Shown: piece by piece, positions 3 through 46,704 of the stretch
Numbering within the stretch: position 1 is the first letter of the stretch
Layout of the letters: each line of letters starts with the position of its first letter
The notes under the pieces: model-generated
Told to the model about the DNA's origin: nothing
What the model saw: only the letters and a program-made list of their open reading frames with translations
The model's database searches: none
Origin: Asparagopsis taxiformis
Lineage: Eukaryota; Rhodophyta; Florideophyceae; Bonnemaisoniales; Bonnemaisoniaceae
Direction of reading: 5' to 3'
Length of the DNA: 64,000 nucleotides
Assembly: GCA_030407315.1 (NCBI GenBank)
Contig: JALQPE010002916.1
Location: forward strand, 1 to 64,000
Translations under genes and position numbers: made by a program

Positions 3-2885
3 GCTGTGCTTCGCCGTATCACCGAGCAGAAGATTCGAGTGCGATTGATTTGCGTCTGTGGCAAATGTTTGTCAGCATGGGGACTCAATGCAGAGATGGG
101 TGATTCTCCGAGGATGGTTGAGTTTCCGAAACAGGTGGGGGTGACTAGTTCTCGTGCCGTCGAAATGTTTGGCAAGACACCCCGCGGAGAATTGTCCTCT
201 CCACTGAACCGCGAACTGCTTTCGAGCAGGTACTTTCTAGACGGCGCTACATCCGACATGCAAGATTCTTTGCAGGCTAGCCAGAAGCGGTTCAGGAGGC
301 TGATGGTTATGATGTGCCAGTGTATCTTGGCTATTCGCAGTAAGGAGATGGGCAGTGCGCCATCTAGGCGGGCCAGAGCCACATCCGGGGCCATTGGTGG
401 TGGTGGAATGGTTGGAATTGCAACATCCAGTGCGCAAGCCAACCAGCTTGGATTTGTTGTCGACCGTGTGTTAGCTGCGTGGGATACCGGGGCAAGAGTG
501 TTGGGGTATGAGGATGTTGAATCGATGTGCTGGCCGTTCATGGTATTCGATCCTGCGAGCCTTTGCTTCAGGTCACTCCCGAATCGGTCTGATGGCTGCG
601 CGGTCGAGGAGCATCGGAAAAACCTGACCATTGTCCCGAAAACTGTAGACAGTGAAAACGGGTTCTGTGCCGACCTTCCAGTGGCTGTGGATGCAAGGCT
701 GCGATCATTGACAAGCGCCTTCCTGCTGTCGATACGCCAATGTGTCACTGAGGTGAATGTGTTCGCCGAGCGTGGTCAGCTGATGCAGAGACTTCGAGCC
801 TTGCTTTTCGACACTCCTGACAAGTTCGGCTTGAACTCGTTCATGCGAGCCAAGTTGAACACGTCTCATGCCCTGGATGGTCAGAGGAGGCTGAAGGCTT
901 GGTTATTGCGAACCCGAGAGCAACGAAAGCTTCCTCTGACCATGGATGAGTTGCACAGTCTTGAGGATACGCCCGAGCCTGGCATCCTTGAAGGTGCACC
1001 TGCGCAGATGGAAATATCCGCAGCAGTGCCAAACAATGGCAGCGAGGATATAGAAGAGGATAGTCTGGAGCCACAGAGGAAGAAGGCTAGGCTGGAGCGC
1101 GGTGGTGGAGAGGACGATAATGCGGCGGTTGCTAGCGAAACAGCAACAAGAGAAGGTGCGGCCGAGGATGACGCTATGGAGGTTGACACTGTATCGCCTA
1201 CAGAAGCACCGCTCGTTGACGTCGGAAAGGAATCCAAGCCGGAATATGTCACCAAGCTGGAAGCTGTGATGGGGCGTTACATTCACACTGTGAATTGTGA
1301 CGCCACTGATGTAGCCAAAGAGGTGGAGGACAAAATTAGTTTCCTGGAAGATGGCGTGTTGGAGGACAGTGTTCAGCTTGTGCTCACTGATCCTCCATTC
1401 AACACGAGGCGGGAAGGCGGCAGAGAAAACTCGGAGTACGATATTCTGGAGCCGGAAGAGTTGGCGAGTGTTGCGTGTGAAATAGTTCGAGTTCTTCGGC
1501 CTGGCGGTCATGCTCTAATCTATTCCAGCGTGCGCCAACTCGTGGCATGGATGGATGCAATCAGAAATGCCGAGCCTGGCAAGATGATTGTGGACAGTGT
1601 TCCAGTCGTGCTATCTCGCCGACCACACAGCTTTACGTCCAATCCATCGACGAAAACGTGCACACTGCATAATATGCACGATTTCGTTATCCATGCGTAT
1701 AAGCGGGGGAAGGGTATGGCTGCATACGATATGGTGGATTACAGGTTGCACAATCCGGACATATCGAGGCACCCTGGGTTCACCAACGCGATTGACAACG
1801 TTCCGAGGTTGTCGGCTGGTGAAGCTCAATACGATGGGCAGAACAACCGACTGCGCCATGAGCAGAAGGCGTTGACCACTCTTCGTGAGCTTCTGGAACG
1901 ATTTTCGAAGCAGAACGATATCGTGATGGATTTCTTCTCGGGAACATACAGCACAGCCATAGCGTGTATGACGTTGAGGGATGGTACGTATCGTCGGTTC
2001 ATTGGGTGTGAGAAGGAAAAAAGGTGCCACGATGCATCGCAGGAGTGGATACTGCATGCTTTCGTCAGTGAGGTGAAAGCCGGGCGATATGGGGGGATCT
2101 TGCAGCGTGAGGTGGAGAGTATTCTTGGGGACGAGTCGGTACCGGTCACAGGAAAAGCTCCAAGGCTTCGTCAGAAGCACATCTCAGATGCACCAGAAGG
2201 TTTACCTGCTGTGACAGCATTGCCGAACCATCTGCTTGTGTTCGTTGCGTCAATGAAGAAGGACGGTTCTATGCTTCACAGATTGAGCGGGGTGCCTATG
2301 GACCAGTGGCCGGCCGAGGACATGCACTCGTTTTGGAGCATAGACCCGGACGCGATTCTGGCTGCTGATGCCGCATTCTACGGTGTCTATGTTTCGCAAT
2401 CGGAGGTAAGAGGTGGTGGGTTTGGCGTATTCGCGGCGAAGAAACTGAAGAAGGGGACGGTCATTGGCTGGTACAACGGGACGATTTTCTATGCGAAGAT
2501 TCGAGACTCGGAACCGCAGAGATCAGTGATGTACGGCCCGGAAGGATTTGGGTGCACAGGACAGAGGTTCCAGGACTACAACATGGAATTGGAAACCACG
2601 TACATAGGGAGGGGTGCACCTGTTCGGAAGGTCTGGCTCGTTCCAGCGGTCTATAATTGTACCAGCTACCTCAATGATTGTCGGGTCATTGACGGAACGG
2701 AGAAAGCGACCGAGGTGAGTCGAACACAGTCAGCCGAGTTTCGACAAGGCGATGCCATAGACAAACCGGACTTTGCTTCGAATATCAAGAATCCCCATGC
2801 TGTCAAGGTCGTTCTGACCAGAGACGTTGAAGCTGATGAGGAGATATTTGCTGACTATGGTAGAAAATATTGGCCAGCTAACTGA
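3..2885 (+). CDS. DNA N6A/N4C methyltransferase fused to SET domain, copy 1 (5' end outside window)
   Basis: The frame is open from the left edge, so the N-terminus is probably missing (959 residues visible, counting from base 6). Residues 1-320 are of unrecognised type, and residues 330-410 are acidic and low-complexity. A beta-class DNA amino-methyltransferase follows, with motif IV LTDPPFNTR near residue 460 and the SAM-binding FxG motif DFFSGTYST near 640. That order, DPPF before FxG, is typical of the N6_N4_Mtase family. A SET domain sits at the C-terminus: GGGFGVFA near 804, NCTSYLND near 885 and DEEIFADYG near 943. It should therefore transfer methyl groups from SAM to DNA and to protein lysine, probably histone. 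The ORF has no internal stops, so it may be functional. The second copy at 36850-40047 shares the architecture. Target base and histone site cannot be read from sequence. Confidence 0.82.
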   Translation, partial: AVLRRITEQKIRVRLICVCGKCLSAWGLNAEMGDSPRMVEFPKQVGVTSSRAVEMFGKTPRGELSSPLNRELLSSRYFLDGATSDMQDSLQASQKRFRRLMVMMCQCILAIRSKEMGSAPSRRARATSGAIGGGGMVGIATSSAQANQLGFVVDRVLAAWDTGARVLGYEDVESMCWPFMVFDPASLCFRSLPNRSDGCAVEEHRKNLTIVPKTVDSENGFCADLPVAVDARLRSLTSAFLLSIRQCVTEVNVFAERGQLMQRLRALLFDTPDKFGLNSFMRAKLNTSHALDGQRRLKAWLLRTREQRKLPLTMDELHSLEDTPEPGILEGAPAQMEISAAVPNNGSEDIEEDSLEPQRKKARLERGGGEDDNAAVASETATREGAAEDDAMEVDTVSPTEAPLVDVGKESKPEYVTKLEAVMGRYIHTVNCDATDVAKEVEDKISFLEDGVLEDSVQLVLTDPPFNTRREGGRENSEYDILEPEELASVACEIVRVLRPGGHALIYSSVRQLVAWMDAIRNAEPGKMIVDSVPVVLSRRPHSFTSNPSTKTCTLHNMHDFVIHAYKRGKGMAAYDMVDYRLHNPDISRHPGFTNAIDNVPRLSAGEAQYDGQNNRLRHEQKALTTLRELLERFSKQNDIVMDFFSGTYSTAIACMTLRDGTYRRFIGCEKEKRCHDASQEWILHAFVSEVKAGRYGGILQREVESILGDESVPVTGKAPRLRQKHISDAPEGLPAVTALPNHLLVFVASMKKDGSMLHRLSGVPMDQWPAEDMHSFWSIDPDAILAADAAFYGVYVSQSEVRGGGFGVFAAKKLKKGTVIGWYNGTIFYAKIRDSEPQRSVMYGPEGFGCTGQRFQDYNMELETTYIGRGAPVRKVWLVPAVYNCTSYLNDCRVIDGTEKATEVSRTQSAEFRQGDAIDKPDFASNIKNPHAVKVVLTRDVEADEEIFADYGRKYWPAN

Positions 2886-3190
2886 GCTACTTTGATAGAT
2901 TTGAGTAAACACGCATTGACAGAGACAATAGACTGTGCATCATCTTCCAAGAGCGCTAGATATTATAGACTACACTACAACAATCGTGACATGACTGCAG
3001 GAAGGCATCTGCGGCCTGGAGTGCAAACTATCCACTTTTCAACTGCTATACCTATGGATACGAAAGGGAGAGAAACTAGAAAGATGTGAGTGCGAAATTG
3101 TGTAGCAACGCAGCATGTAGAACACCAGTAACAGAGCGATGTAGGAGAAGCAGTCACCCCATTACAGTGCGGGCCGTTTACCGGGGATGC

Positions 3191-3590
3191 TGACAGCAAA
3201 GTCATCGTTACGATGACTTTGCTGTAAGAAAACAAATCATTACAGCAGCCATGATTTCTTTACCGGGTAAAAAAATTGTGGCCGCTGTAATGAAACGTTT
3301 TCTTACAGCAAAGTCATCGTAACGATGACTTTGCTGTAAGAAAGCAAAACATTACAGCGGCCACAATTTTTACCCGGTAAAATTTCTTGCTGATTTTTTA
3401 CCCGGTAAAAAATTCTTTGGCCACTGCAAGGAAACGGTTCCTTACAGCAAAGTCATCGTTACGATGACTTTGCTGTAAGAAAACGTTTCATTACAGCGGC
3501 CACAATTTTTTTACCCGGTAAAGAAATCGTGGCTGCTGTAATGATTTGTTTTCTTACAGCAAAGTCATCGTAACGATGACTTTGCTGTAA
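3191..3590. repeat. Array A: four 37-bp odd palindromes
   Basis: Near-perfect 37-bp palindromes start at 3191, 3303, 3442 and 3554. Each has 18-bp arms running from TTACAGCAAAGTCATCGT to its complement around a single central base, T or A, which marks orientation. Spacing is 112, 139 and 112 bp. The spacers hold a second inverted repeat (CATTACAGC...GCTGTAATG) and a 17-bp odd palindrome, TTTTTACCCGGTAAAAA. The 300 bp before the array (2886-3190) show nothing recognisable. Confidence 0.92.
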
Positions 3591-3621
3591 GGAACCCTGG
3601 TAAACGGCTTCAGCTGTAAGC

Positions 3622-3697
3622 AGCAGGGAGTTTCGTCCTTCTCCCTTCTTGGTAAAGGTACCTTTACCAAGATGGGAGAAGGACGAAACTCCCTGCT
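3622..3697. repeat. 76-bp near-perfect palindrome centred on GGTACC
   Basis: The arms are 38 bp each with one mismatch and read AGCAGGGAGTTTCGTCC... inward to GGTACC. One arm recurs at about 4505, 9665-9690 and 21205-21240, always beside a 37-bp array or its relic. It therefore belongs to the same repeat module. Confidence 0.85.
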
Positions 3698-4182
3698 GTC
3701 TCACATGAGAAGCGAAGTGTGAAGTAGGGAACATCACGGGAGGATGGTTTGGACGGCTGTTGGTCGCAAAATCTACTCCTTGTGCCGTGAGCCACAGCGA
3801 CCATATGGTACCTGTGCCTCACGGCATAAAATATATATTCAACCCGCCCGGGCGGGAACCGGCGCCGGTTCCGGTGCACTATAGTCGTCAATAAGTAGGA
3901 CTCTAGCTACTCACTATACAACTATAATCGTAAGGTAGGATAGCCTAAGATCGTAGTACGGAAGAGACGGATGGGAGGGTGTGTGTAGAGGAAAATTAAG
4001 GCGGCAGTACGAGTAGCCTATCGTGGTAATAGACGAGTATTTCATTGCGAGAGGGGGCGTGAGGGGGGAAACGAAAGGCGTCAGTCGTCACCAGAGAGGC
4101 TGGGATGCTGAAGGCGGAGTAGAGAAATGGGGGAGAGGGTGAAGCCAGACTGCTTACAGCTTTGGCAGTTCCGGCGGGGTGC

Positions 4183-4470
4183 TGACAGCAAAGTCATCGT
4201 TACGATGACTTTGCTGTAAGAAAACAAATCATTACAGCAGCCATGATTTCTTTACCGGGTAAAAAAATTGTGGCCGCTGTAATGAAACGTTTTCTTACAG
4301 CAAAGTCATCGTAACGATGACTTTGCTGTAAGAAAGCAAAACATTACAGCGGCCACAATTTTTTACCCGGTAAAATTTCTTGCTGATTTTTTACCCGGTA
4401 AAAAATTCTTCGGCCACTGCAAGGAAACGGTTCCTTACAGCAAAGTCATCGTTACGATGACTTTGCTGTA
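4183..4470. repeat. Array A': three 37-bp odd palindromes
   Basis: Palindrome cores lie at 4183, 4294 and 4434, with the same 111- and 140-bp spacing and the same spacers as array A. The tail after the array (AACCCTGGTAAACGGCTT...) is a close copy of the tail after array A. Bases 4560-4976 show no gene. Confidence 0.9.
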
Positions 4471-4976
4471 AGGAACCCTGGTAAACGGCTTCGGCTGTAA
4501 GCAGCAGGGAGTTTCGTCCTTCTCTCATCCTGGTAAAGGTAAGAAGCGAAGTTTGAAGTCGGGTAAATTGCTCAGCAAAGGTCTGTACGGCTGTGAGCAG
4601 CTCTCAGGAGTATTTTACCTCACGTGGTCTCTGTTCAGGTTATACCCTGTATATATATAGGTAGCCTAGTGTAGGTGGGAAGATAGACGAAAATTCTACA
4701 AATAATTTATCACAGTGACGGCTCTCGTAGTCGAAATCTGCGCGTTGTCAAGGGTTGAAACTAGTCTCCCCCTACGGCCTAGCTAGTAAAATCATATAAC
4801 GTTGTAGACTAATATTAAAAAGTAGCAAGCAATCTGCTGAGTAGCACTAAACTATGAGATGAAGGACAGATGTATAGATGAGAACTGAAAAATGGGCTAA
4901 GGTAACAATGTTGAGATGAGAAAGACAGAACTTTATAGCAGGGAACAGTAGTATAGGTTTTAATACTTCTGATATG

Positions 4977-7900
4977 CTATCTATTGCTCCTATCGTACTT
5001 GTAATATTCGACGGTGTGGATGTGGTCCGTGAGGACGTCCTTCTCCGTCTTCAAGTAGATGTGGCCGCGCGTGGGCAGGCCATAGACTAACTTCTCGCCT
5101 GCAGGAAGATCTCCTCGGCTGAAGCCGACCCCGTAATGGTAAAGGTCACCGCGACCAACCAATACGGAATAGGGTGGCACCCAAAAGATGAGAGGGGGAA
5201 CCTTCCACATATCGGCGCCCGGACTGGCCAGGCATACATGACTATAAGGGGCAACTACTATAGAGAACCCATCGGCTCCGCTCGACATCATGAAATATGA
5301 TGGAGACGTGGTAGGACTTCCAACACTATTCGTCGCTACCTTGAAGTCCGTGTGCCCATCCTGGTCCGCAGCCCCATCTGCTGTAAGAAGCAGCCGCAAT
5401 CCTGTCTTCGGGAAGAAGACAGGATCCTCACCCTCCATTCCCAACTTCAAGAACTCCGCACAAACACCAAGAGCAAGCTCTGCCACCAACTTGTTCTTAT
5501 ACATCTCCAAATTCCCCTCCTCCAACTTGTCGCACAACTCACGCCGCGGCAGAGAGAGGCGCCCACGACCACCATCGATGCGGCCCTTCGCATCACCCAC
5601 GTTGTGGATGAACTGCCACGGCGAAGGATCGAAGCCGGGCTTTGCGAAAGCTGGCGGCTCGTCCTGTGGCTCCCTGTCGTCATCGTTAGAATCAGACTGC
5701 TGGGAGGGTTTTTCAACCTCCTCAACCAGCGGGAACTGCCTAGCGAAGTGACCGAACAACTCATGCGTCGCATTACCAGCCGTGGACGATGCCAACAGGC
5801 CTTCCATAACAATAACCCCCAAGTTTTCCAACAATGCCTTCTTCACCGCAAAGTACCTGTCCACCACCGTATCCTCAGCACCCGGCGATGCAGCTGCCTG
5901 GAATGCTGCCGCCCTCATTTCCGCCCGAACCGTCTCCACCGTCGTACTTTCCATATAGTACTTCATCCGGCTGCCAGACGCAATTGCGCTGGGGAGAACG
6001 GCGGCCACATTCTCATCGACGATGCTGTCGGGAATGGGATTCTCCTGGGCGTCGTCGAACTGGAGAACCGGCTCCCGAGAGCGACCTCGGGAAGCCGACT
6101 TGGATTTCTTTGACGACGACTTTGATGAAGTCTCACCGAGCCTTCTCTTTTTGGTAGAAGGCTCGGGCGTCGCAGAAGCGGCTTCCAAGTTACGCTTCCC
6201 GAGGATGGAGTTTTCACCCGCATCCTCGGGGGCGCTCTCCAGCTCGACGACCTCCACAGCACCACCCGCCGTTCCACCACGACCGGAACGACTCGCTTGC
6301 AGGCGGGTACTCCTTCTGGGCATCACTTTCCTCCCAGAAGTTTCCACTCCGGGCGGTGCAGAATCACTGACTTCAATGACATCTTCGTCAGGATCTGCAC
6401 CGCCCTTCGCACTGCTGCCCTCGACCACATTCTCGGGAGTAGGGCCCTCCGTCGAAATCCTCGCAACCGTCTTCTGTCCAACCCCACCGGATGGTGAAGG
6501 GACGAAGCTGTCATCGCTGGAGCTTCCCGAACTGCTAGCAGATGCAGAACGGGAAGCTTCGACAGCGGGGGCCGGAGCAGCAGGGTGCTGCTCGGCAGCC
6601 GGAGTCGCAGGCTCAGGCTGCGAAGCCGGTGAGACCTGCTCCTGCGCGGCTTGGACAGGACGGTTGGGGGTACCAGTCCCGGCGTGGGAAACTGGACCAG
6701 AGCGTTCGCTGCCATCCTGGGGACCACGCGCAGTCGGCTTGACCGGGGTCACCGCAGGGGAGGATGCAGACACGGCAGGGGTAGAGACAGGAACAGGGGC
6801 AACCTCGGAATTGCTGGAAGATTCCAGTTGAGGTGGTGGGGGCAAAGGAATGGAGGATGAAGGGATGGGCAAGGAATTGGAAGAGGAAGGGATGGGGGCA
6901 TCATCACCACATGTGGCTGGGAGCGCAGCATGTGGGATGTCTGGGTACATCGCGTGAAAGCGTTTCCGCATTTGCATGTCGCGGTACCCAGTGACGCGCA
7001 GGAGCATTTTCCTGGCGTCCTTCCCGAAGACAGACTTCTTACGGGGAAAAATATTTTCGTAACTGTAACCATCGGGGGGGCCTTCCTTGGGACGGAAGTC
7101 TGCCCAGCACCCCTTCTTGGGGACCATCTGAGCAAGAACTTCGACAACGCGCGAGCGAATGTCGAAGCTCTTGCTCGGGTCACCCCGCTGGGAATTGACC
7201 CATCCAGCATCCTCAACACATCCGACACGTTCCAGTACTCGGCCACCTCCTTCACGTACCCGAAGATTTCCAACAAACCAGCAATCCATTCCTGCCCAAT
7301 GGTACCAACCGAGTACGGTTTCAGCCCGGCCGACCGACGGCTACAAGTGTAGCGCGCCGTCATCTCCAGGATGAAACACTTCTGCACATCCGGAGCACTC
7401 CTGAACGACCCATTGAACAACAAGTTCACCGTACACCCAGCCAGATCCTCTGTCGAAGAAAACTGCACGAACTCCGGCCTGTTCGGGATGCTCGACCAGT
7501 ACTTGAAAGCAGGGCTTTCAATGGTCTTGAACCCTCGCGCGATCGAGACGTAGCGCATGAGCTGTCTCGGACGAATCCAGCTCAGCGCTTTCCGTTCTTT
7601 TATGTATTGAACGGTCGGCTCGATCTTCTTCTTTCCCAGGCGGTGGATATTGATGAACTCCATCACAGAGCACACATTGTCAGCAACTGTTACCTCGCTG
7701 ACATTGTGGGTGTGGAAGTTCATCAGCCGTGAAAGCGGGAGTACTTCTTCGGAGCAGAAGACATCCCGGCCAAGCCGAGTCGGTGGGAGGAGAAAGTCGA
7801 CTGGAATAGTTCCAAAGCGACGGTAGATGTCAGACTTGACAAACTCCTCCCACTCTGGACTGTCCTTCGCAGGAGCAGGTCCAGCCGACTCGAGAATGGC

Positions 7901-8623: not shown

Positions 8624-8857
8624 TGCTTTGGTGAGTGATTGACAAACGAAGAGTGAAAGATTGAGAAAGAGAGAAGAAGATCTGAACGACAAGCTGTTTT
8701 GCTGCGTAAGCTGAGTAAGATAGGCGAAACTTAGAGATCTGACATATTCCTATTAGTATACACCCTGGTAATGATATTCAGCGGTTGACCAATCCGAACC
8801 TTCCACATCACTTTTCGTTGTACGACAATTACAGCTCAGGCAGTTTACCAAGGATCC

Positions 8858-9121
8858 TTACAGCAAAGCCATCGTTACGATGACTTTGCTGTAAGGAAAC
8901 GTTTCATTACAGAGGCCAGGAATTTTTTTACCGGGTAAAGAAATCATGGCCACTGTAATGTTTTGTTTCCTGACAGCAAAGTCATCGTTACGATGACTTT
9001 GCTGTAAGAAAACGTTTTCATTACAGCGGCCAGGAATTTTTTTACCGGGTAAAGAAATCATGGCCACTGTAATGAAACCTTTCCTTACAGCAAAGTCATC
9101 GTAACGATGACTTTGCTGTAA
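8858..9121. repeat. Array B: three 37-bp odd palindromes
   Basis: Cores start at 8858 (one substitution, AAGCCATCG), 8971 and 9085, with 113-114 bp spacing. The spacers carry CAGGAATTTTTTTACCGGGTAAAG variants of the secondary palindrome. The array begins about 235 bp upstream of the ATG of ParB-dioxygenase copy 1. Confidence 0.9.
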
Positions 9122-35549: not shown

Positions 35550-35565
35550 CGGCAATATCCTGACG

Positions 35566-36849: not shown

Positions 36850-39800
36850 CTAATTCCATGCTCTAAACGCTGTCCCATAATGAACGTAGAGCTCCTGCCC
36901 TGGACGGATATCGCGGATTGCACGTACTACAATGATCTTCGGATTTTCTAGGTCCTTCGCCTTGAGCTTCTTCCCCGTCGAACCGCTGCTGTAGTTCTCG
37001 ACAAACTCGACGTTGGCCATCCGCCTGGTGTCTTCCGCCGGAGTGTCCTCACCTCGCAAATACCGCGGGTCGTTGATGAACTGCGCCGAACAGAACAGAG
37101 CCGGAACAATCCAAATTGTATGGTCGATGTTTTCGTCGTCCTCCGCTGTTGTATACAGCTTGATGGCATACATCAAGAATGTTTCCTTCGTTATCGCCAT
37201 GTGACCCTCTCCGTACGCGAACCTCATCGACTCCTTGCTCATATCAGAGTACACAACAGTTCCGTAGTATGCACATACTTCGTCGCCAACATTAAATGTC
37301 TGTTCAGCGAAGAGCCCTCTTCCTGCATTTGGATGCTTAATCAGCGATGGTCGAACGCTCAATTTTTTCGCAACACAATCGTGTGCCCGCATCACGCGAG
37401 GGTTTTCAGTTTGCAACCAGCGGCGCAGGGAAGGTGGCCAATAATGTACCGGTTTTTCCATGTGCTCGTGCGACGCAATCGACTCTGGGCACAGCTGCCA
37501 GAGGTACTGCCGAATATATTTCGGGAACCTCTGGTACAGGGGAAGGCCAGGTGGGGGTTCGATGATCCTGCGTTCCCTCTGTGTACGCATCGTGACAGAG
37601 GGGGACGCCAAGAACTTCTCAGCACTCTGTTTCGCTTCTGTCGTGACCCTCATGTCAGTGTTGTTTGAAAGAATTACACGTGACATGACTGCACACAGCT
37701 TTGGAAGCGATCGTGCCACACACAATTTGTCCATGTCACTGCCGACGAAAACACGGTGCTCAGGCAAGCTCATAGCTGCTTTTCCCGTTGCGAAAGTGCC
37801 AGAGAATGGATCGACAACAATATCACCAGGCTGTGAATGCTGGCTGATCAACTCCATCATGAGAGCGACGCTCTTCTGCTCTGCACGAACTCTGACCGTA
37901 GCACCGGTTGTGCTCCTTGTTCGCCACACCATCTCATTCGAATCGATGGCGGGCATATTGATGGTGACGTTGCACCACGCCGGGTACGTGCCGTCCATGT
38001 ATCCGTGGTTCCTATAGGCCACCATCTCGCTTCCGGTCTTGAACGGAACACCTCGCTTCCAGAAGTGGATAGCGACCTCTGCCATGTTCATGCGTTGGTA
38101 CCTCTTCCGCCCCGGCATTTGATAGAGGTGCCCAGGTAGTCGGACAAACAACAGAGGTACCTCGTCAACGAAGAAAACTGAATTCCGAACGACGTCCTCC
38201 TCCTCCTCGTCCTCCTCCTCATCCGCACTTTCTTCGCCACTGTGCTGCGATGCTTCGGAGTCCGAATTCATGGACGTAACCTCTTCTTCATCCGACCCGT
38301 CATCACTGGCAGCATCATCGGTTGGGCCTTCTGACTGCGGTCCTTTGTACGTTTCCAAGTAATGGAACCATTCGTAGAACTGCAAAACGGAGCAGAACAC
38401 GATGCCGTGGCCACCGGGGCGCAACAGCTCGTCAAACACTTCGATGCTAGCCTGCATATCTTCTGCAGTTAGCCTGTCGTACGAAGAGTTGGAATCGTTC
38501 CTCTTACGACGAACATTGTAGGGCGGATCAGTCAGAATGAGCTGAACGTTGCCCGTGATGGGCACGTGTTCTCGGCTCTCGTCGGCACTGACCAAATCTT
38601 CGAAAGGGACGTCGTACACCCGGCAATACTGACTCATTTTCGAAAGAAAGTCCTTTGCGAGAGCCTGCCCTTCACTTTCCTGCTCTTCTGTCGCATGGGG
38701 TGACGGTGACGGGGGAGACGGCCCTTGGGCAGTAAGACTGGTCCTACCAGGCCCAAGTTCAAGCTTGGTTGTGTGTCTTGTCGACGGAACCAAACCTCTC
38801 CCTCCTGTGTTGCGACGAGTGGGAGTGCCATCAACCGGCTTGGCGACCTTTTCTGCGTCCGCGGCTTGTGGTGCCGGGCGGAGGACAGCCATAACGTCTT
38901 CGGCGAGGGTGTCAAAGTACGCTGGCAGCTTGTCCGGATTTCCGCTTGACAAGTATATTTCCAGCGCCCCCCAGCGGTCGGACTCCGGCCAGGTGTACAG
39001 GTCCGGGTTGACGATAAGAAACTGCAACCGGTCGAAGAACTTCCTCACAAGGTCCCTAAATGCACTGTGCTGCGCACTGGTTCTTGTCTCTACTTTTCCA
39101 CCATATCCATCAGGATGAGATAGGGGAGCTTTGTCGTGGTAGAGATCTAGCTTCTGCTCCATCGGTGCGAATAGACCTTCATCGAGCACGTCAAACCAAT
39201 GCTCACTGCTGTCGAAAATGATGTACGGCGCCATCAACTCTTCGAAGCTGGAAAACTTTGCGGCGTAGGCCACATCGGTCCAAGCATGGTATAAAACTTG
39301 AACCACGTAACAAGCTCGATTAGTGCTTTTTCGATGGGCTGGGACGCGTGCGGCTTCGTTCCCCTCTTCGGCCGCATCGCCTATTCGGCGACGCGGCAGG
39401 TTCTTGTTGTGATTTCGGATGATAGACAACGCTTGGAAATACATCAATACCTCGAACGTTTCCGGTGGAGCAAGAACGAAGGCGCTTGGTTCCCCGCGCT
39501 GCGGCGCCTGTAGTGGCGAAGGAAGCATGTTACATCCAATAAGGAAGGTCTGCGGCACGATCCCAGAAAGGATGCAGTGCTCAACCCATTGCCCGATACG
39601 CTCATCCTGTCTTGAAAACTCGGCAATGGGTAATGCCAGACGAACAATCTGCTTGGCTCGCTCAACGTTCATCTCTGCCATGACGATTTCGGCAACATCC
39701 GCCTCGACTCCAGCATTCTTCGAACGACCGCTGAAGGACATGCTGAGTCGACCTTGCAGTGCCACAAATTGTTCTTCCGTGCCCTGCGCAACCCAAGCGC

Positions 39801-40047
39801 CAAGGTCCGCGTATGTGAAACCTCCCGGCTTGTCCGTCAAGTCTGCGAAACTTGAGTGGGCGAATAAATCCAGCAAGAGGCGGAGGAAGTCTTTGCCAGC
39901 GAGAGTAGTTTCGCGGGCGGCGCGACCTACGTTTCGACGTGTACCCATGTCACTAGAATCCTCCCAAGGGCTAGCGGGTTCGCGCAGAATTGGCACGGTT
40001 GCGTCGTCAACTATCGGATTGCTGTTGCGCCTGCGCTTATTCGTCAT
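36850..40047 (-). CDS. DNA N6A/N4C methyltransferase fused to SET domain, copy 2 (intact)
   Basis: The ATG at 40047 (MTNKRRRNSNPIVDD, basic NLS-like start) gives 1065 residues. The longer frame upstream lacks protein character, so I rejected it. An N-terminal region of about 450 residues has no recognised domain. Then comes the beta-class methyltransferase: LTDPPYNVRRKR near 505, an acidic Glu/Asp insert near 580-620, and the SAM motif DPFSGTFATG near 745. The SET domain is at the C-terminus: HPNAGRGLFAEQTF near 906, FINDPRYLRG near 988 and LYVHYGTAF near 1056. DPPY is the usual motif of adenine-N6 enzymes but does not exclude cytosine-N4. It lies between inverted repeats at 36421-36635 and 40361-40564, so it looks like the cargo of a TIR element. 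No transposase is inside. Confidence 0.85.
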   Translation of the reverse strand: MTNKRRRNSNPIVDDATVPILREPASPWEDSSDMGTRRNVGRAARETTLAGKDFLRLLLDLFAHSSFADLTDKPGGFTYADLGAWVAQGTEEQFVALQGRLSMSFSGRSKNAGVEADVAEIVMAEMNVERAKQIVRLALPIAEFSRQDERIGQWVEHCILSGIVPQTFLIGCNMLPSPLQAPQRGEPSAFVLAPPETFEVLMYFQALSIIRNHNKNLPRRRIGDAAEEGNEAARVPAHRKSTNRACYVVQVLYHAWTDVAYAAKFSSFEELMAPYIIFDSSEHWFDVLDEGLFAPMEQKLDLYHDKAPLSHPDGYGGKVETRTSAQHSAFRDLVRKFFDRLQFLIVNPDLYTWPESDRWGALEIYLSSGNPDKLPAYFDTLAEDVMAVLRPAPQAADAEKVAKPVDGTPTRRNTGGRGLVPSTRHTTKLELGPGRTSLTAQGPSPPSPSPHATEEQESEGQALAKDFLSKMSQYCRVYDVPFEDLVSADESREHVPITGNVQLILTDPPYNVRRKRNDSNSSYDRLTAEDMQASIEVFDELLRPGGHGIVFCSVLQFYEWFHYLETYKGPQSEGPTDDAASDDGSDEEEVTSMNSDSEASQHSGEESADEEEDEEEEDVVRNSVFFVDEVPLLFVRLPGHLYQMPGRKRYQRMNMAEVAIHFWKRGVPFKTGSEMVAYRNHGYMDGTYPAWCNVTINMPAIDSNEMVWRTRSTTGATVRVRAEQKSVALMMELISQHSQPGDIVVDPFSGTFATGKAAMSLPEHRVFVGSDMDKLCVARSLPKLCAVMSRVILSNNTDMRVTTEAKQSAEKFLASPSVTMRTQRERRIIEPPPGLPLYQRFPKYIRQYLWQLCPESIASHEHMEKPVHYWPPSLRRWLQTENPRVMRAHDCVAKKLSVRPSLIKHPNAGRGLFAEQTFNVGDEVCAYYGTVVYSDMSKESMRFAYGEGHMAITKETFLMYAIKLYTTAEDDENIDHTIWIVPALFCSAQFINDPRYLRGEDTPAEDTRRMANVEFVENYSSGSTGKKLKAKDLENPKIIVVRAIRDIRPGQELYVHYGTAFRAWN

Positions 40048-40360
40048 AATGGAATGAGTGGAAAACTCGGTACAGGATGGCGACCGCTCGGCGAGACAGT
40101 CAAATTTGACGACGTATCTCGTGACGTTTGCACTCTTTCGTGAGGAACACTGGTTGATATCGAACGGAACAGAGTATACGGGTACACAGCACTGGAAAGG
40201 TCTTGAAACCCGTAACCGGTGTAGGTAATAAGTTGTGACGCATACGTGGTAGAGAAAAAATTTTAAAAAGATTGTGATTCCCTGCCTTTGAGTGTTGTAC
40301 TGCAAGGCCGCCAGTCACATAGGTTGTCACAGGTGCCTCACGCTTACCAGGTGAGCGACA

Positions 40361-40564
40361 TCCGGACGGCCACTGGACGTGGGGATGTCCAGCTCAGATG
40401 CATTGCTGGCCAGCCCAGAAATTCTACAATTTCGGGCAGAAAAAATATTGCAAAAAACATCGATTTCGGCGGTCGATTGTGCCGTACGGCACACCCCCAT
40501 CTCAAAAACATGTTCACATGTGCATGTTTTTGAAAATAGCCCAAATTTTAATTCAAATCAGGAT
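40361..40564 (+). repeat. Right terminal inverted repeat of the methyltransferase-SET cassette
   Basis: Inner end GGACGTGGGGATGTCCAGCTC, then ATTGCTGGCCAGCCCAGAAA, GTGCCGTACGGCAC, the CATG hairpin, and outer end AATTCAAATCAGGATG. It is the reverse-complement partner of 36421-36635. Confidence 0.85.
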
Positions 40565-40861
40565 GCAGATATTCGTCTTCTACCATTGTCAGAACACATT
40601 CGTATAACCACATTTGGAGAACCTGAGCCCAGAGCTATCGGTTTTGGCGGGAGCTAAGCCATATCTCATCCAATCAGTAACTACTTCCCGCCAGCTGAGT
40701 GGTGGAACCCCTGCTATTTCTACCAACGACACATACGGAGTGTCAACTCGGCAATCGTATATGATTCGGGTGCTAAATTTATTCAAGAGACGAATGGGCT
40801 TCGAAAAGGAGCCCAACAACGTTTTCTTGTGATCCATGGGTATAGGACTATTCTATTCTTC

Positions 40862-41200
40862 TCCAGGCTTCCACCATAGCCTCCTCCACCACCTCCGTTA
40901 ATGGATCGATTATCCGAACCGCACCTCAACATGCTTTTCTTCTCACCCATGGGTACTGACATCTCCGAGATGTGAGTCACATGTTCTGCAGGCTTCCACC
41001 GTAGCCGCCTCCTCCGCCTCCGTTAATGGCAACAATATCCGAACCGGACCTCAACATGTTTTTCTTCTCATCCATGGGTACTGACATCTCACATGTTCTC
41101 AACATGTGAGATGTTAGTACCGGAGAAGTTCTCCAGGCTTCCTCCGTAGCCACCTCCTCCACCTCCGTTAATGGCAACAATATCCGAACCGGACCTCGAT
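40862..41200 (-). repeat. Three 125-139-bp tandem units encoding a glycine-rich peptide
   Basis: Units start near 40864, 40989 and 41128. On the minus strand each encodes a variant of INGGGGGGYGGSL preceded by SGSD. Short minus-strand ORFs (40783-41180) span them. This could be the remains of a glycine-rich protein gene, and no full gene is visible. 41230-41730 holds nothing recognised. Confidence 0.55.
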
Positions 41201-41732
41201 CACTCGCTCGCGGAGGGATCTGTGGGAATCAACACGACATCACCACTGCGTCTTACCTGACATCCACATCTCTCCGGGCTGAAAACGGAAGGACGACATT
41301 GGGTTCGTTCCGCTGCGTAGACGTTTAGAATCTTGTTAGAAAAAAGTAAACGAAAGAGAATGACATCTCATCTCTGTCGCAATATGTTCCATTTTCAATT
41401 TCTCGGGTTGCACACCCATCAAGGCCTGGATCGAACCCTCTTCGATGGATAGGACAAATAGTGGAAGGCTTTTAAGCCTTTGACCAAGCGGCTATTGATT
41501 GGTTGGAGGAAAGAAATTACAGAGGAAATATAGCTGAGTACGGTGCTCGCGATAGCTGTTAGGTTAAAGTCAAATATTTGTTTCGATTATTTTTCGTACG
41601 GAAATGCCTTGGAAAAGACGATGCTTTGTCGTTCTCTTGGAGGGAGACCGTTGCATTGCACTCCATTCGAGAGCATCGTCATGAAGGAGAGGATTCTTTC
41701 TGCTTGTTAGAATCGGTTTAGAGCAGATAGCT

Positions 41733-42407
41733 ATTGCATTGCTGGCCAGCCCAGAAATTCTAAAATTTCGGGCACAAAAAAATTGTAAAAAATCATCGAT
41801 TTGGGCGGGTCGATTGTGCCGTACGGCACACCCCCATCTCAAAAACATGTTCACATGTGCATGTTTTTGAGAATAGCCCAAATTTTAATTCAAATCAGGG
41901 TGTCTAATTTGGCCACAACGGCCCCAGGAACCGGAGCCGCCGCCCCGAGCGGGGTCATCACTGGCTTCTGTAAGCACTAACTGTAAGGCTAAATGGCGCC
42001 GAAAGATGGGTCGATTCCAGGCTTCAAGCCTAAGTTATGCTAGGGTGACATCGTTTCCCCTGTTCCATCATGGTCCCGCCTTACTCCTCCACGACAAACA
42101 CTACTCACCCATCACGTTACTCATATTCCGTGCACTTTGTATGAGTAGTGAACTCGCCTGCTTAGTTGCTGCAATGCGTGGATGTAGGCAGCACACGACC
42201 AACCTGGAATGGACGTCCGGTGGATGTCCAGCTGAGATGCACTGCTGGCCAGCCCAGAAATTGTAGAATTTCGGGCACAAAAAGTATTGCAAAAAACCTT
42301 GATTTCGGCGGGTCGAATGTGCCGTACGGCACACCCCCATCTCAAAAACATGTTCACATGTGCATGTTTTTGAGAATAGCCCAAAGTTCAACTCAAATCA
42401 GGGTGTC
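41733..42407 (+). repeat. Left compound direct repeat (two TIR-family units and a linker)
   Basis: It has two same-orientation copies of the 200-bp unit (41733-41904 and 42195-42407) around a linker. The linker has TAATTTGGCCACAACGGCCC, GGGTCGATTCCAGGC and CCATCATGGTCCCGCC. The same order recurs at 46973-47505 on the other side of the 42751-46704 gene. Confidence 0.8.
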
Positions 42408-42750
42408 CCCCGGATAAAGGGGTGCTCGCAGCCGCCCCAAAAGCCGTCTAGCTTGACAGCTGTAATTTTAACACATTACACATCAAGGACACTGCCTGCT
42501 TCACGCCACCTCGTCAGGTTTCGAGAGCCCGACTCGGGCCCGTTCCGAACGGACACTCACATCTCGATTGCCTCTCTTGCATTCCAGCGGTCACGATAGG
42601 TGTGTACCTAACAAAATTTCGGTTCTATTGTGTTATTATTTCCAGCGATTGGCGTTCACGACCATTCTTCAACGCAACGTGAAACATACCATCCACATCA
42701 CTCCAATACGTCAACGTCAACCATCTCTTTTCCTTTCCAACTCAACAACC

Positions 42751-45700
42751 ATGGCGGATACGCATTTCAGCAGCTTGTTTTCAACGGTTTGCGGCGATCA
42801 AGTGAGCGCGTCAGCGGAGTCGCGCGGACTCAAGCGCGGCGCCGATGTCAATTTGTTTGCGGACGTGGACGGTGCGGCTGTGCATATTGGGACGGCTTCG
42901 GTGAGCACTGCTGGTGGCGATGTTGGCCTTCCGCGCACGCTGCACAACCACAAGCTGCCGGAAACCGACGAGGCGGACTATATCGTCGTGCGCAACATTG
43001 CGACTAAGGACAAGTTCAAGGACCTCCCGTTCCCGTACATGTTTGATGGCGCCGAGGGACCGCCGGAGACGATGGGTGGAGCATACGCCGCGGCGTTTTA
43101 CCCTTGGGATACTCGTATGATGCGCCCCGCTGCGGAGGATGGCCCTAGCGACATTCGTACCCCTGCTGCAGCGTCAAACTTCAACGCAGCGACGAACCAG
43201 GCCAGCTCGGGACGGATGCCCAGTACCGGTCCAGCAGGCGAAATCACTGGTTCGGGGGGTACGAAGCATCCAGCACGCTCCGTCCCGGTTTCGGGAGGCA
43301 CGAAGCGCCCTGCTCGCTCTGCTAGAGCCTCCAGTGGAGGCACGAAGCACCCTGCTCGCTCCAACGTCACCGAAGCTACTACGCAGGACGTAACCGAGGT
43401 GGACGACGAACCGGAGGTGGCGGAGAGCATTCGTGAGCAGCAGGGGACGCAAATTACGGTGCCCAAGTTTGTGACGTCGGATTACGTCGGAGAAGGAGCG
43501 ACTGTGTTGGTGAGGCAGCTAGTGGAACCGGCCGTGACCCTTCGGGATGTGAAAGAAGACCACGTGGAGGACGTGCGCAACAATATGTTGGCTGTGGGGT
43601 ATGTGAGCTCTTCGCGTATCACTGTGACGGTGCTGAGGTCGCAGAACACGCATCTGCCCGCCGACACGCGTCTGTTCCAGAATGGCAAATTCCATGCCAA
43701 TGCGAACGTGACCGTGATCGACGGACTGCATCGTCCCAATGCTATGCATAGCATTGCGGATGACTTCACGCGCCTCACCCGTATGCACAGAACCAAGCTG
43801 CCACAGGACGCAAACCGCTTGCGCTGGGTTACTCAGCTTCTGGATGTGTACTACCTTCGCCGCAAGGACGACAGTGATCTTCAGCCTCATGAGATCATCC
43901 ATAAGAGTGCAGAGTCGAACCATACGACTGGGACGCAACTGACGGAACGCTCCCTGGTTCGAATCTTGTCGTCCATCCAGCAGTTCATCCGTACGATTGC
44001 TGTTGCAAATAACGTGGAAAACGCTGGCGACTTGCGTGAGTCTGATGTCATCCGAACATTGTTCGAGGCGCAGTTCATGGGGATGATGAATTCGACGAAC
44101 ACGGCCCGGCGGTGGACGCGTTTGGCTATAGCAACGCTGAAGCATCCTGTTCTCGACGAAGTTTTGCGTGAGCTGAACAATTCCGAGCGCCGCAACGAGA
44201 TTGGGATAACGCACCTGGACCACAAGATAGTGCGCGAGTTGCTGGAAGAAAACTTTGTCTTCGTCTTGCGTGGTCTTTCGGAGTACTTGAACCCTGCTCA
44301 TGGTGGACGTCCGGATGGACGCTTTGACGTGAACGACTTCTATACATACGTCCGTCGCGTGACTGCAATAGCAAATTCTCTGTACGCTGCGTATGGGCGC
44401 CCAAAGAGTATTATGCGCAAGTCATTTCTGAGCACAGAGATGGCAATTGGGTCGGTTAAGCAGCCGAAGGAGTTGCAATGGCATCTCACCAATGCCATTG
44501 CAATGTATAGAGGGGACGACCGGAGCAGTGAGGCTCGAATGCGACGGAGAACCACGCGTTTACAGGATTTGGAAACGAACTTGAAAGAGTTTTTCAATCC
44601 GACATTGAAGAAGAAGACTAAGGCTCGACGCAAACGCCGCCCTTCTGCTGCCAATGTGAGACTCACTCACAAGAAGCAGCGAAACGTCGAACACGAGCCT
44701 GCTTCGCATGGCATCCGCCGCCGTTCACAGCGACTTCGCTCGACGGGAAGCACACGCCTCGAGGAAGAACAGCCGGTTGCGGTACAACAATCCGCCGGGG
44801 AAGAAGAGCAGGCCGTTGTTGATAAACCCACCGATCAACAACAAGCCACTGCTTCCGGTGATGAGGGTGAAGAAGACTCCGCCCGTTCCCCCCATTCTGC
44901 CGTTGAGATTGTCCCCCAAGATAACCAACGTGCTGGTGCGACTCCCTCCAACCAAGAATCTGTCCATAACGTTTCGGACGAGGAAGAAAACAACAGTGCA
45001 GATGAGGGCCATGTCAAAAGCAAGGGGGTCCGCGAAGTGACAATTACACTCACTGTTCCGGAAGGAGTGGAAGTCGATGAAGACGGTTACATCGTTCGTG
45101 ACTCTCCTTCTGAAGACGACCTACTGTTCGACGACCGTATGCCATCTATTCCTGACGATTTCGAAGCCAAAGACCGAGCCGAAGGGCATCATCTGGCGCA
45201 GCGTCCCGCGGACGTCATCGCATCGGTGAGGGTTGGCTGTCTGCCCCCGATTGAGCTCAGGTTGTTATTGGAGAGTGTGGAAATCGATGAGGAGGGCAGA
45301 GAGGTGAGGTATTTGAAGCAAGTGGCGATGGACCCTGTGTTTGAGGGGCTGCATATTCCGGAAGAACATCGGGCTCGTGTGCTATTCGAAATCTATCACG
45401 TCTATCCGATGTTCTTCGCAGCGTGGAAGATGGCTGCCAAGGCGATGTGTGAGCCTACATCGACGTTTCTACCCTCGAGACTGGACTTCGCTCAGGTTGC
45501 GCGAATGTCTACAAGCTGGAAGGATTCGTATGAGGCCGGCACTGGTATGGCGTACTTCCACAATTGCCGAACGGAAATCAATGAGCGAGGGTATACGGTG
45601 ATGCACAATTTCGCGGATGTAAGCTACCTCGATGCGTCGGACAAGTTCCCATTTGACTTGGGTCTCATGGAAGAAATTCCTAACCAGGAATTGTTTGGGT

Positions 45701-46704
45701 ACTTTTTTGGAACGTGGGAGGGTGAGGAGGTGCACAAGGACCCTGGGAACCGGCAGCTGTGGAGTCCCATTGTCAATACAGGGGGCGATGAAACAGATGA
45801 GAAGAACCGGAATGAGGGGAGGGCTCGCTTCACGTCTACACGCCAGTGCCTGGTTGACTATGCCGAGAACGACGAGTCGCGTACCGACCGGTTCAAGTTT
45901 GTGACGCGACGAGCCCTGCTGGATGTGTGGTTGGGAATCCTCGTCCGGCTGATAGGACTGGAGGAGTGCGGTTTACCGGGAGAAAAACTTGTCATGCCGG
46001 CATCTGGGGGACGGTTTTTGATAACGGGAAAGGGGTGTCCTCGGCAGGTCCCACACAATGATTTCCCTGTTCCTCCTCGCGACCGCAAAGATCAACTTCC
46101 GGGTTACTTTGTTATTGCCAACGGAGATGACCCATTCCCTATCTGGGTGTGTCCAGGGTCTCACAAGTACGTCTTTTCCAAAGCGCTGGAATTAGATATG
46201 TACGCCAAGACGATGAAGCTGAAGAAGGTAATCGTTCCGCCACGTTCAGTCTTCATCGGTCACGGCCATGTACAACATGCCGGGGCAGGGCATGTCGACA
46301 GAGTTGTGTCACACACGACAACGAGGTATCACACGTATTTCAGGAATGCGTCGTATCTGATTCCCGACAATGTTTCGTTTGGTTTTATCAGGCGGTTGGG
46401 ATTCGAAGAAGAAGTAATCCCCAATGCTCCGCGCCGATCTGCCAGGCAAAGTCAACCGGCACCTGTCAATGTTCGCCACAAGACAGTTGTTCCCATCCCG
46501 GTCAAGAAAGATCGTAGGCCAAAGACAGGGCAGCTCGGAATCATGCGGATGAAGACGACAGAAGCTCCCAAGAAGAGAACCCTCACAGCGGGTGAAGAAT
46601 TCATCTTGAGCAGATCAACTCCACAGTTGCCGATAACGCCTATTCTGCCGGGAGATCCTGAATATAGTGGGGACGAAGAGGAAGAACAATTTTCCGACGG
46701 CTAG
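42751..46704 (+). CDS. ParB-like domain + Fe(II)/2OG dioxygenase, copy 3 (intact)
   Basis: The ATG at 42751 sits in a good context (CAACCATGGCG) and gives 1317 residues in one frame. The N-terminus is disordered, with short GGTKHPAR-type repeats near residues 170-210. The ParB-like motif is VTVIDGLHRPNAMHS near 321, inside a domain starting near VRQLVEPAVTLRD. A helical region follows (450-600), then a basic linker (KKKTKARRKRRPS) and a Glu/Asp-rich stretch. The C-terminal dioxygenase has the metal pair H1102 and D1104 (VPHNDF), distal His H1176 (HVQHAGAGH) and candidate 2OG-binding R1192 (TTRYHTYF). Copies 1 and 2 have the same residues in the same order. As the only unbroken copy, it defines the family architecture. 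Likely nuclear; substrate unknown. Confidence 0.78.
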   Translation: MADTHFSSLFSTVCGDQVSASAESRGLKRGADVNLFADVDGAAVHIGTASVSTAGGDVGLPRTLHNHKLPETDEADYIVVRNIATKDKFKDLPFPYMFDGAEGPPETMGGAYAAAFYPWDTRMMRPAAEDGPSDIRTPAAASNFNAATNQASSGRMPSTGPAGEITGSGGTKHPARSVPVSGGTKRPARSARASSGGTKHPARSNVTEATTQDVTEVDDEPEVAESIREQQGTQITVPKFVTSDYVGEGATVLVRQLVEPAVTLRDVKEDHVEDVRNNMLAVGYVSSSRITVTVLRSQNTHLPADTRLFQNGKFHANANVTVIDGLHRPNAMHSIADDFTRLTRMHRTKLPQDANRLRWVTQLLDVYYLRRKDDSDLQPHEIIHKSAESNHTTGTQLTERSLVRILSSIQQFIRTIAVANNVENAGDLRESDVIRTLFEAQFMGMMNSTNTARRWTRLAIATLKHPVLDEVLRELNNSERRNEIGITHLDHKIVRELLEENFVFVLRGLSEYLNPAHGGRPDGRFDVNDFYTYVRRVTAIANSLYAAYGRPKSIMRKSFLSTEMAIGSVKQPKELQWHLTNAIAMYRGDDRSSEARMRRRTTRLQDLETNLKEFFNPTLKKKTKARRKRRPSAANVRLTHKKQRNVEHEPASHGIRRRSQRLRSTGSTRLEEEQPVAVQQSAGEEEQAVVDKPTDQQQATASGDEGEEDSARSPHSAVEIVPQDNQRAGATPSNQESVHNVSDEEENNSADEGHVKSKGVREVTITLTVPEGVEVDEDGYIVRDSPSEDDLLFDDRMPSIPDDFEAKDRAEGHHLAQRPADVIASVRVGCLPPIELRLLLESVEIDEEGREVRYLKQVAMDPVFEGLHIPEEHRARVLFEIYHVYPMFFAAWKMAAKAMCEPTSTFLPSRLDFAQVARMSTSWKDSYEAGTGMAYFHNCRTEINERGYTVMHNFADVSYLDASDKFPFDLGLMEEIPNQELFGYFFGTWEGEEVHKDPGNRQLWSPIVNTGGDETDEKNRNEGRARFTSTRQCLVDYAENDESRTDRFKFVTRRALLDVWLGILVRLIGLEECGLPGEKLVMPASGGRFLITGKGCPRQVPHNDFPVPPRDRKDQLPGYFVIANGDDPFPIWVCPGSHKYVFSKALELDMYAKTMKLKKVIVPPRSVFIGHGHVQHAGAGHVDRVVSHTTTRYHTYFRNASYLIPDNVSFGFIRRLGFEEEVIPNAPRRSARQSQPAPVNVRHKTVVPIPVKKDRRPKTGQLGIMRMKTTEAPKKRTLTAGEEFILSRSTPQLPITPILPGDPEYSGDEEEEQFSDG

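Follow-up and report, generated by a model that had tools for sequence, protein, structure and literature searches.

Here we show that two families of composite DNA transposons in the red alga Asparagopsis taxiformis, called elements A and B, each encode a transposase, a fusion of a DNA methyltransferase with a SET domain (the writer) and one or two proteins that join a ParB-like domain to a putative 2-oxoglutarate (2OG) dioxygenase domain (the ParB-2OG-like proteins). The transposase domain of element B was read in a copy on another contig, C279. Both elements lie in the window, that is, the stretch of DNA analysed here, which comprises the first 64 kb of contig C2787 (JALQPE010002916.1) in a genome of 141.5 Mb and 3156 contigs. 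Phycobilisome-linker domains were found at 13 places on ten contigs of this genome (one of them, C469, may be plastid), in open frames of 256-892 aa. Together with long frames free of introns, which reach 4042 aa at the SET places, they fit a red alga, and would fit less probably a glaucophyte or partial contamination. The transposases of A and B are dissimilar (no BLASTP similarity, best E 0.15), and both cargo families are represented in the two elements by diverged members. The presence of such enzymes on each element suggests that both transposon families manage their own silencing. The published assembly of A. taxiformis L6 has 142 Mb, 3308 contigs and 33.48% DNA transposons (PMC12115072).

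Element A, a composite transposon with CACTA termini

Element A (Table 1) is a composite DNA transposon with CACTA termini. Contig C1862 aligns to positions 5569-21206 of the window at 99.4%, the match ending exactly at 21206, and past the equivalent point it runs into a copy of element B. The far end is absent from the window because the contig begins within the element; in C1830 it reads CACTACGGTGTTGAGAA. The terminus pattern CACTACGGTGTTGRRAA has 1834 exact occurrences in the genome (904 + 930) and none in the reversed control. A full-length copy of 25,264 bp between two termini is found at C74:32666-57929, with both the transposase and ParB-2OG-like 2 inside. The CACTA/EnSpm ends 5'-CACTA...TAGTG-3' are present at both ends of this copy and also of the C1830 copy, where CACTACGGTGTTGA stands at either end.

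We looked for target duplications in 11 outer end pairs, excluding pairs that end at an internal terminus; the C59 pair spans such a terminus. The 2-bp flanks match in five of the pairs (C74, C104a, C104b, C19 and C59; chance of five or more, 3e-4), and a 3-bp duplication, the usual CACTA/EnSpm length, was found in none of the 11. For the wider CMCT group, PMC12730594 gives target duplications of 2-5 bp. Some end pairs of element A are composite, because one internal terminus is met repeatedly with the same flank. In the six contigs read, this A-type terminus precedes the flank tataagggctggagtggctc and belongs to a high-copy derivative that is either composite or nested. A-type termini also occur in tandem about 6.47 kb apart, for example on C4, C21, C101, C116 and C117. 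Element A inserts into or beside element B: at C1862:15656 and C1830:100827, A termini abut B copies at the window equivalents of 36338 and 47451.

Counted from the transposase end, the genes of element A are the transposase, ParB-2OG-like 2, ParB-2OG-like 1, the writer, an open reading frame (ORF) of 467 amino acids (aa) and one of 537 aa, followed by the other terminus. The last two ORFs lie outside the window; the 537-aa one has weak coiled-coil-type matches and showed no similarity to the 539-aa ORF of element B on comparison. The 467-aa ORF (L038:4714-6114), transcribed divergently from the writer, has no Pfam match, and its start resembles a small beta-barrel reader domain by eye.

The spacing of these genes is fixed. 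Counts of genes found together in the genome-wide lists of places are lower bounds. Among 36 x 42 listed places, transposase A and ParB-2OG-like 2 share a strand and start 4.5-5.2 kb from each other in at least 19 pairs (0.32 expected); writer A and ParB-2OG-like 2 are 9.5-10.4 kb apart in at least five (0.47 expected), and transposase A and writer A 14.3-14.7 kb apart in at least two (0.51 expected), again among listed places. All 12 transposase A loci compared extend across the intergenic gap and take in the first 160 bases of the ParB-2OG-like 2 frame. The copies are near-identical and have spread recently: 36 of 36 scored transposase copies are 100% identical, as are 40 of 40 scored writers and, outside the window, 42 of 42 scored copies of ParB-2OG-like 2, the last two sets without stops.

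The original prediction had seen in these genes independent, interleaved mobile cassettes, most of them bounded by palindrome arrays or by inverted or direct repeats. Such repeats are present in the window, but they lie inside the two composite transposons instead of bounding separate cassettes, and separate palindrome-bounded cassettes are rejected because the gene spacing is fixed. What does stand is that the writer and the ParB-2OG-like genes travel together, with fixed spacing in two transposon families of one genome, and that the copies seen lie in repeats and not as solitary host genes. Viral insertion was also considered and is rejected, since no viral match was found in the element ORFs scanned with Pfam.

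The large transposase that had been predicted is indeed present, as a transposase-like ORF of 1288 aa (18661-14798, minus strand; protein P0004), whereas its supposed KDZ affinity is not supported. The protein matched no Pfam family at E 10, and by eye it has a GDYPA...CHIC motif, to be compared with the C(2)C motif that follows the second D in EnSpm. A profile search of the genome for the KDZ domain PF18758 gave no match, and 14 control genomes likewise gave none. The 11 pairs of 8-base flanks share at most 2 bp, and by eye no pair is alike over all eight bases. The target duplication of Zisupton is 8 bp, according to PMC12730594. The missing Pfam match, the CACTA termini and the lack of an 8-bp duplication thus give no support to a KDZ identity for element A; in the distances scored, the cargo genes lie near the transposase of element A or near Plavaka places.

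Element B, a composite transposon with a Plavaka-type transposase

Element B is a composite DNA transposon with a Plavaka-type transposase. Its right end is common to the window, C1862 and C222, with different flanks in the last two, and the 16-mer at this end has 397 exact occurrences in the genome (control, 2). This end, ...CACAGACGA, has neither of the termini of fungal PlavakaA and PlavakaB, TGT..ACA or CATCA..TGATG. The copy on C279 carries the window's 32878-49069 in three aligned pieces, and its Plavaka domain lies beyond the point at which the window copy is cut; the latter keeps only the part behind the domain. Genome-wide, the Plavaka domain PF18759 was found in at least 123 places. 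A BAH-like protein had also been predicted and was not confirmed. It is uncertain which ORF was meant, and the candidate at 32867-33829 (plus strand) is the C-terminal remnant of the Plavaka transposase ORF seen whole in C279.

Three B copies, on C222, C279 and C1862, were read at length. They were picked for holding both cargo genes, and the unbiased test is the genome-wide distance between writer and Plavaka places. From 150 SET places the ten best were dropped as ordinary SET genes by score. Of the remaining 140 listed B writers, 39 lie within 15 kb of one of the 123 listed Plavaka places, against 3.7 expected. All but two of the pairs fall into two fixed geometries: in 28 the two genes point in opposite directions about 5.0-5.5 kb apart, and in nine they share an orientation at 9.5-10 kb. 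In C222 (886-6404, compared with window 36423-42027) the B writer segment corresponding to window 36423-41100 is inverted between inverted repeats. An inversion of this kind is the likely cause of the second geometry; it may possibly reflect a recombination switch, or plain recombination between repeats.

The ParB-2OG-like gene of element B is less often found beside its partners. Taking two pieces on C1784 as one, 33 places were counted. Within 25 kb, three of them have a listed Plavaka place (about 1.4 expected) and five a listed B-type SET place (about 1.6 expected). For 12 loci chosen by score, the flanks agree only in part with those in the window, with a coverage of 0.15-0.72 in 11, the twelfth being the window's own. 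With so few neighbours among the listed places, the link of this gene to element B rests mainly on the loci read.

Writers

Two methyltransferase-SET genes had been predicted, and both writers match PF01555 and PF00856 over the cut-off, these being the only families to do so in the Pfam scans; no chromodomain was found on either in the same scans. At the level of profile matches, the methyltransferase and SET assignments are firm. The complete A writer is a 1186-aa frame (L038:778-4335) with an N-terminal ParB-like part. The A and B writers are 25% identical over 628 aa covering methyltransferase and SET (E 1e-48), and since both share the two domains at this distance, the fusion probably predates both transposon families.

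In four aligned writer rows TDPPF/Y-N and FSGT are invariant, DPPY/F before FxGT being the order of the beta-class N6-adenine type. Searched against the PDB, the writer profile matched DpnA (1.7e-12), CcrM (2.2e-6), MboIIA (2.6e-6) and RsrI (0.0013), with the cytosine-N4 methyltransferase 8s9m behind at 0.0099. DpnA and MboIIA are adenine enzymes by their entry names, and CcrM and RsrI are adenine enzymes as well. The writer is thus likely to be an adenine-type methyltransferase, as are its best solved relatives. In the same search the SET enzymes EZH2 and KMT5A were matched at 0.002. In the SET domain N1086 and Y1147 are invariant in the four rows, and ND takes the place of the usual SET motif NH.

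Relatives are few. Among 5.8 billion protein sequences, with 8000 scored candidates in each search, protein P0001 gave one match, the writer alignment two and the ParB-2OG alignment one, little of it beyond near-identical sequences. P0012, a protein held by the JGI, combines ParB-like, methyltransferase and SET parts and shows 30% identity over the full length, its ParB-like family match taken alone being weak (0.093). The viral contigs searched for relatives of the writer yielded a single locus, matched in the methyltransferase part only.

ParB-like domain

The N-terminal 136-residue fragment of the A writer matches phrog_4272, a family of unknown function, at 4.3e-7, phrog_1033 at 5.9e-4 and four further ParB-like phage families at 0.03-0.21. 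The ParB-like part of this writer has DGAHR, an instance of DGxHR; it had no match in Pfam or the PDB. In the ParB-2OG-like proteins the motif is DGSHR or DGLHR. Their direct matches to ParB families are weak, with three of four fragments (none from element B) reaching phrog_1033 at E up to 10, and in a pairwise comparison B matches A at E 0.019. In hhalign comparisons, made after dropping near-duplicate loci, the ParB parts of A-type writers and of ParB-2OG-like proteins matched each other with probability 88 and E 3e-6, against at most 0.9 for six unrelated profiles. These matches give moderate support to a ParB-like domain common to the A writer and the dioxygenase-like proteins.

An IMG/VR phage contig encodes one protein (L083:7689-8900) with a ParB-like part (phrog_4715, 1e-11) and an N6_N4 methyltransferase (3.3e-19). 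Such a joint protein, together with the phage and bacterial adenine-type methyltransferases among the writer's relatives, would fit a scheme of DNA hypermodification, in which methyltransferase and dioxygenase act one after the other, as in phages, and the resulting oxidised methyl base shields or labels the DNA of the element; serial methylation and oxidation in phages are discussed in PMC12730594. The scheme gives the SET domain no place, however, no glycosyltransferase match was found in the element ORFs scanned, and the 2OG fold that it needs is unproven, so that we think it quite improbable.

Putative dioxygenase domain

Three ParB-2OG dioxygenase genes had been predicted. Three genes with ParB-like and HxD...H regions are present, whereas their 2OG domain was recovered by no search and stays at the level of motifs. 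HxD, a distal H and RxH are invariant in all three proteins, with identities to the first of 40% and 27% for the remaining two. Pfam, NCBIfam, PHROGs, PDB sequence and hhalign searches of these proteins did not return the 2OG fold. With the 2OG-like part, the PDB search gave only antibodies and other unrelated chains, and tblastn against phages and plasmids gave no match. Against two cyanophage 2OG families (phage P-SSM2 and IMG/VR), hhalign probabilities reached at most 0.6, compared with 0.1 for the controls (transaldolase, with seven of 80 loci used, PstS, epimerase, haem oxygenase, PsbA and the ParB part of the writers), which is far from a match. Tet_JBP (PF12851) had no Pfam match in the ParB-2OG-like proteins; a genome profile search for it was empty, as were its controls. 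With no search recovering the fold, the dioxygenase name is drawn from the HxD...H...RxH pattern, and we treat the C-terminal part as a putative 2OG dioxygenase. Among the four folds predicted, methyltransferase and SET were thus recovered by domain search, ParB with moderate support and 2OG not at all.

That profile, PDB and hhalign searches returned no 2OG family is what would be expected if the domain were not a DNA-acting dioxygenase, having another fold or being a protein hydroxylase, and the writer alone were epigenetic. The invariance of H-x-D, distal H and R-x-H across such diverged proteins and a ratio of nonsynonymous to synonymous substitution rates (dN/dS) of 0.23 for this part in element B speak against it, and we consider it rather unlikely, though the least unlikely of the alternatives weighed here.

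Frames differ between the two genes of element A. ParB-2OG-like 2, broken in the window, is open elsewhere. In C1862 the two parts of ParB-2OG-like 1 are again in different frames, with further breaks, which may reflect an intron, a frameshift, an assembly error or two proteins.

Selection on the cargo and placement of the palindromes

Purifying selection acts on the domains of the B genes. In 11 of 12 copies of the B ParB-2OG-like gene (L011, which has a stop, fell under the length cut), dN/dS was 0.22 for the ParB and helical part, against 0.62 in the linker and 1.65 in the tail, and among four B writers it ranged from 0.24 to 0.40 across six pairs. Selection on the A genes cannot be read from their copies, which are too alike. 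Gene capture is common in transposons, and the cargo could have been captured and be passive, its co-location being a matter of hitch-hiking within abundant repeats. That the conserved parts of the B genes are constrained and their spacers freer speaks against this, as does the recurrence of the same gene pair in two families; the stop-free A writers and ParB-2OG-like 2 copies point the same way, though they are too alike to show selection on their own. We regard passive cargo as very improbable.

A 33-nt palindrome, ACAGCAAAGTCATCGTNACGATGACTTTGCTGT, is present in 22 copies in the window (up to six mismatches; reversed control, 0). Of these, seven, six and five fall into the three intervals that separate the four A genes, and four belong to decayed sequence at 22.8 kb. 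The half-site of this palindrome is found 47 times in the window (reversed control, 1), once within element B, at 34622. The upstream side of transposase A bears another repeat in place of this palindrome. Element B has a 25-nt palindrome of unlike sequence, in six copies (control, 0) flanking both cargo genes on both sides. Palindromes that differ between A and B thus sit between or beside the cargo genes, without filling every gap.

A model of self-marking

ParB proteins bind sites in plasmids and chromosomes. In the transposons, the ParB-like domain of the A writer and of the dioxygenase-like proteins (two in A, one in B) would bind the element's own palindromes. There the methyltransferase would write N6-methyladenine (6mA), the SET domain would methylate a lysine in the histones of the same nucleosomes, and the dioxygenase-like protein would oxidise a methyl mark, be it element-written 6mA, host 5-methylcytosine (5mC) or a histone mark. 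Writer and eraser together would hold the element switchable and transcribable, out of reach of host silencing. The marks may also time transposition, much as Dam methylation times that of Tn10. We see it as an even question whether ParB-guided self-marking of this kind keeps the elements expressible and lets them escape host silencing, perhaps also timing their transposition.

A more ambitious form of the model, in which we place clearly less confidence, is a wholly self-targeted system. A phage-type ParB-like domain common to writer and oxidiser would read palindromes planted among the genes of the element and bring 6mA, methylated histones and the oxidative removal of marks to it. Its epigenetic state would then be set by the element itself in place of the host; the kit would be useful enough to serve two divergent families in one alga, with the JGI-held ParB-methyltransferase-SET protein as a relative.

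Several observations weigh against self-marking. That the ParB-like domain reads the palindromes is conjectured from what is typical of ParB proteins. No ParB-like part was recognised in the element B writer, so that shared guidance is not general. The ParB profiles of the writers and of the ParB-2OG-like proteins did not match the ParB part of two phage ParB-methyltransferases (hhalign probabilities 0.5 and 0.1). In C1830 the A half-site is found only beside the 3' end of the writer and is absent from the two gaps beyond it. Six of the 11 outer end pairs of element A (C64, C44, C10, C21, C101 and C1830) have no 2-bp duplication. The failure of all searches to recover the 2OG fold belongs here as well. 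The observed/expected ratio of CpG is 0.87-0.98 in the elements, so that the depletion which would be a trace of host 5mC is missing, and with it any sign that these copies are heavily silenced by 5mC.

The anti-silencing outcome that we infer is, moreover, not told apart from self-repression. A writer and a putative eraser within one element, palindromes upstream of the ParB-2OG-like genes, and EZH2 and KMT5A among the SET relatives would also suit self-restraint, in which the writer puts a repressive histone and DNA mark on element promoters and so limits copy number, the dioxygenase-like protein lifting the mark for transposition. SET specificity cannot be read from sequence, and the dozens of near-identical copies among those listed, with 1834 termini, look unrestrained. 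We hold self-restraint to be unlikely.

Features and neighbouring sequences of the window

The features of both elements are given in Table 1. Between the decayed A-type sequence and element B, positions 29651-32877 are GC-rich (63%), with an observed/expected CpG ratio of 1.43, unlike the adjoining elements, and hold most of a 733-aa ORF without a Pfam match. Immediately past the end of element B lies a Copia-type polyprotein (49124-52066, minus strand) with RVT_2 (6.9e-36), integrase core and GAG-pre-integrase domains. Two C2H2 zinc-finger ORFs follow on the minus strand, at 60123-62468 and 63004-63900 (PF00096, 1.8e-10 and 8.4e-9).

Table 1. Features of elements A and B in the window.
Feature	Position	Strand	Remarks
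Element A, CACTA-type	1-21206	-	Far end cut by contig start; terminus on the transposase side at 21206, CACTACGGTGTTGAAAA on the reverse strand
Element A writer (ParB-like, N6_N4 methyltransferase, SET), 5' end missing	3-2882	+	PF01555 1.7e-16, PF00856 3.3e-6
Palindrome array 1, 7 copies	3116-4621	.	Between 3' ends of writer A and ParB-2OG-like 1
Element A ParB-2OG-like gene 1	8749-4980	-	ParB part 8749-6752, 2OG-like part 7340-4980, two overlapping frames
Palindrome array 2, 6 copies	8810-9979	.	Upstream of ParB-2OG-like 1
Element A ParB-2OG-like gene 2	13462-10203	-	Frame broken in window; open 1087-aa frame elsewhere
Palindrome array 3, 5 copies	14085-14681	.	Upstream of ParB-2OG-like 2
Element A transposase, 1288 aa	18661-14798	-	Open frame; GD.PA...C..C motif by eye
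Element A subterminal 35-bp repeat array and terminus	20330-21206		Repeat scan, terminus alignment
Decayed A-type sequence	22795-29650		4 palindromes at 22795-22942, GGAA-type terminus at 29650
Element B, Plavaka-type	32878-49165	.	Left part missing; right end ...GAGAACACAGACGA at 49165
Plavaka-type transposase ORF, C-terminal remnant	32878-33829	+	Part of 769-aa ORF in C279, PF18759 E 1.2e-16
Element B ORF, weak coiled-coil-type matches	33907-35576	-	539 aa in C279, two frames in window
Element B inverted-repeat block	36392-36696	.	25-nt palindrome at 36550
Element B writer (N6_N4 methyltransferase, SET)	36853-40314	-	PF01555 3.8e-15, PF00856 9.8e-7
Element B repeat block	40383-42407	.	Palindromes at 40413, 41749, 42252
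Element B ParB-2OG-like gene, 1410 aa	42472-46701	+	ParB-like and HxD...H region
Element B repeat block	46933-47540	.	Palindromes at 47031, 47481

Known systems and significance

Among the papers listed in a search of the open-access literature, none pairs a ParB/methyltransferase/SET writer with a dioxygenase in transposons, judged by title and the start of the abstract. Transposons with TET/JBP or with SET genes are known; the combination of a writer with a putative oxidiser did not turn up among those papers. Element-encoded, sequence-specific control of an element's own epigenetic state is familiar from TnpA of En/Spm. TnpA and the Vandal proteins are DNA-binding regulators, however, and not enzymes that write or oxidise marks. 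The anti-silencing proteins of plant Vandal elements, mentioned in PMC12730594, exert control of this same element-encoded, sequence-specific kind.

Closest to elements A and B are the fungal DNA transposons with TET/JBP genes, which occur in eleven lineages, including Plavaka, EnSpm and KDZ, and whose dioxygenase is thought to counter silencing (Kojima 2025, PMC12730594). Elements A and B differ from them in lacking a Tet_JBP match, in the fused ParB-like part, in having a methyltransferase-SET writer in the same element and in residing in an alga instead of a fungus. A 2026 review of 5mC and 6mA in fungi, in the portion available, names TET/JBP as the enzymes that transposons encode (PMC13297926). 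SET histone methyltransferases are borne by HarbingerS and MuDR elements of Phytophthora (cited in PMC12730594), whereas in A and B the SET domain forms one protein with a DNA methyltransferase of adenine type and has a dioxygenase-like gene as its partner, in elements of CACTA and Plavaka type. The N4CMT of bdelloid rotifers resembles the A and B writers in being a bacterial-type amino-methyltransferase (beta subtype) that is linked, in a eukaryote, to histone-based chromatin (PMC8885841); yet it is a host gene for a 4mC (N4-methylcytosine) enzyme with a chromodomain reader, while the writers are transposon cargo with a SET domain, their best relatives being adenine enzymes. The phage protein L083, in which a ParB-like part precedes an N6/N4 methyltransferase as in the A writer, differs in being a protein of 403 aa without SET from a prokaryotic virus, its ParB part having no hhalign match to that of the writers.

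If the self-marking model is true, the pairing of a writer with a putative oxidiser, both bearing the same kind of DNA-recognition domain, would amount to an autonomous epigenetic switch on a mobile element, whereas known transposons carry single chromatin enzymes. The model predicts 6mA on the palindrome-rich blocks and binding of the palindromes by the ParB-like domain. It also suggests a route by which phage-type methyltransferases could enter eukaryotic chromatin, and may help to explain the expansion of DNA transposons in such a genome.

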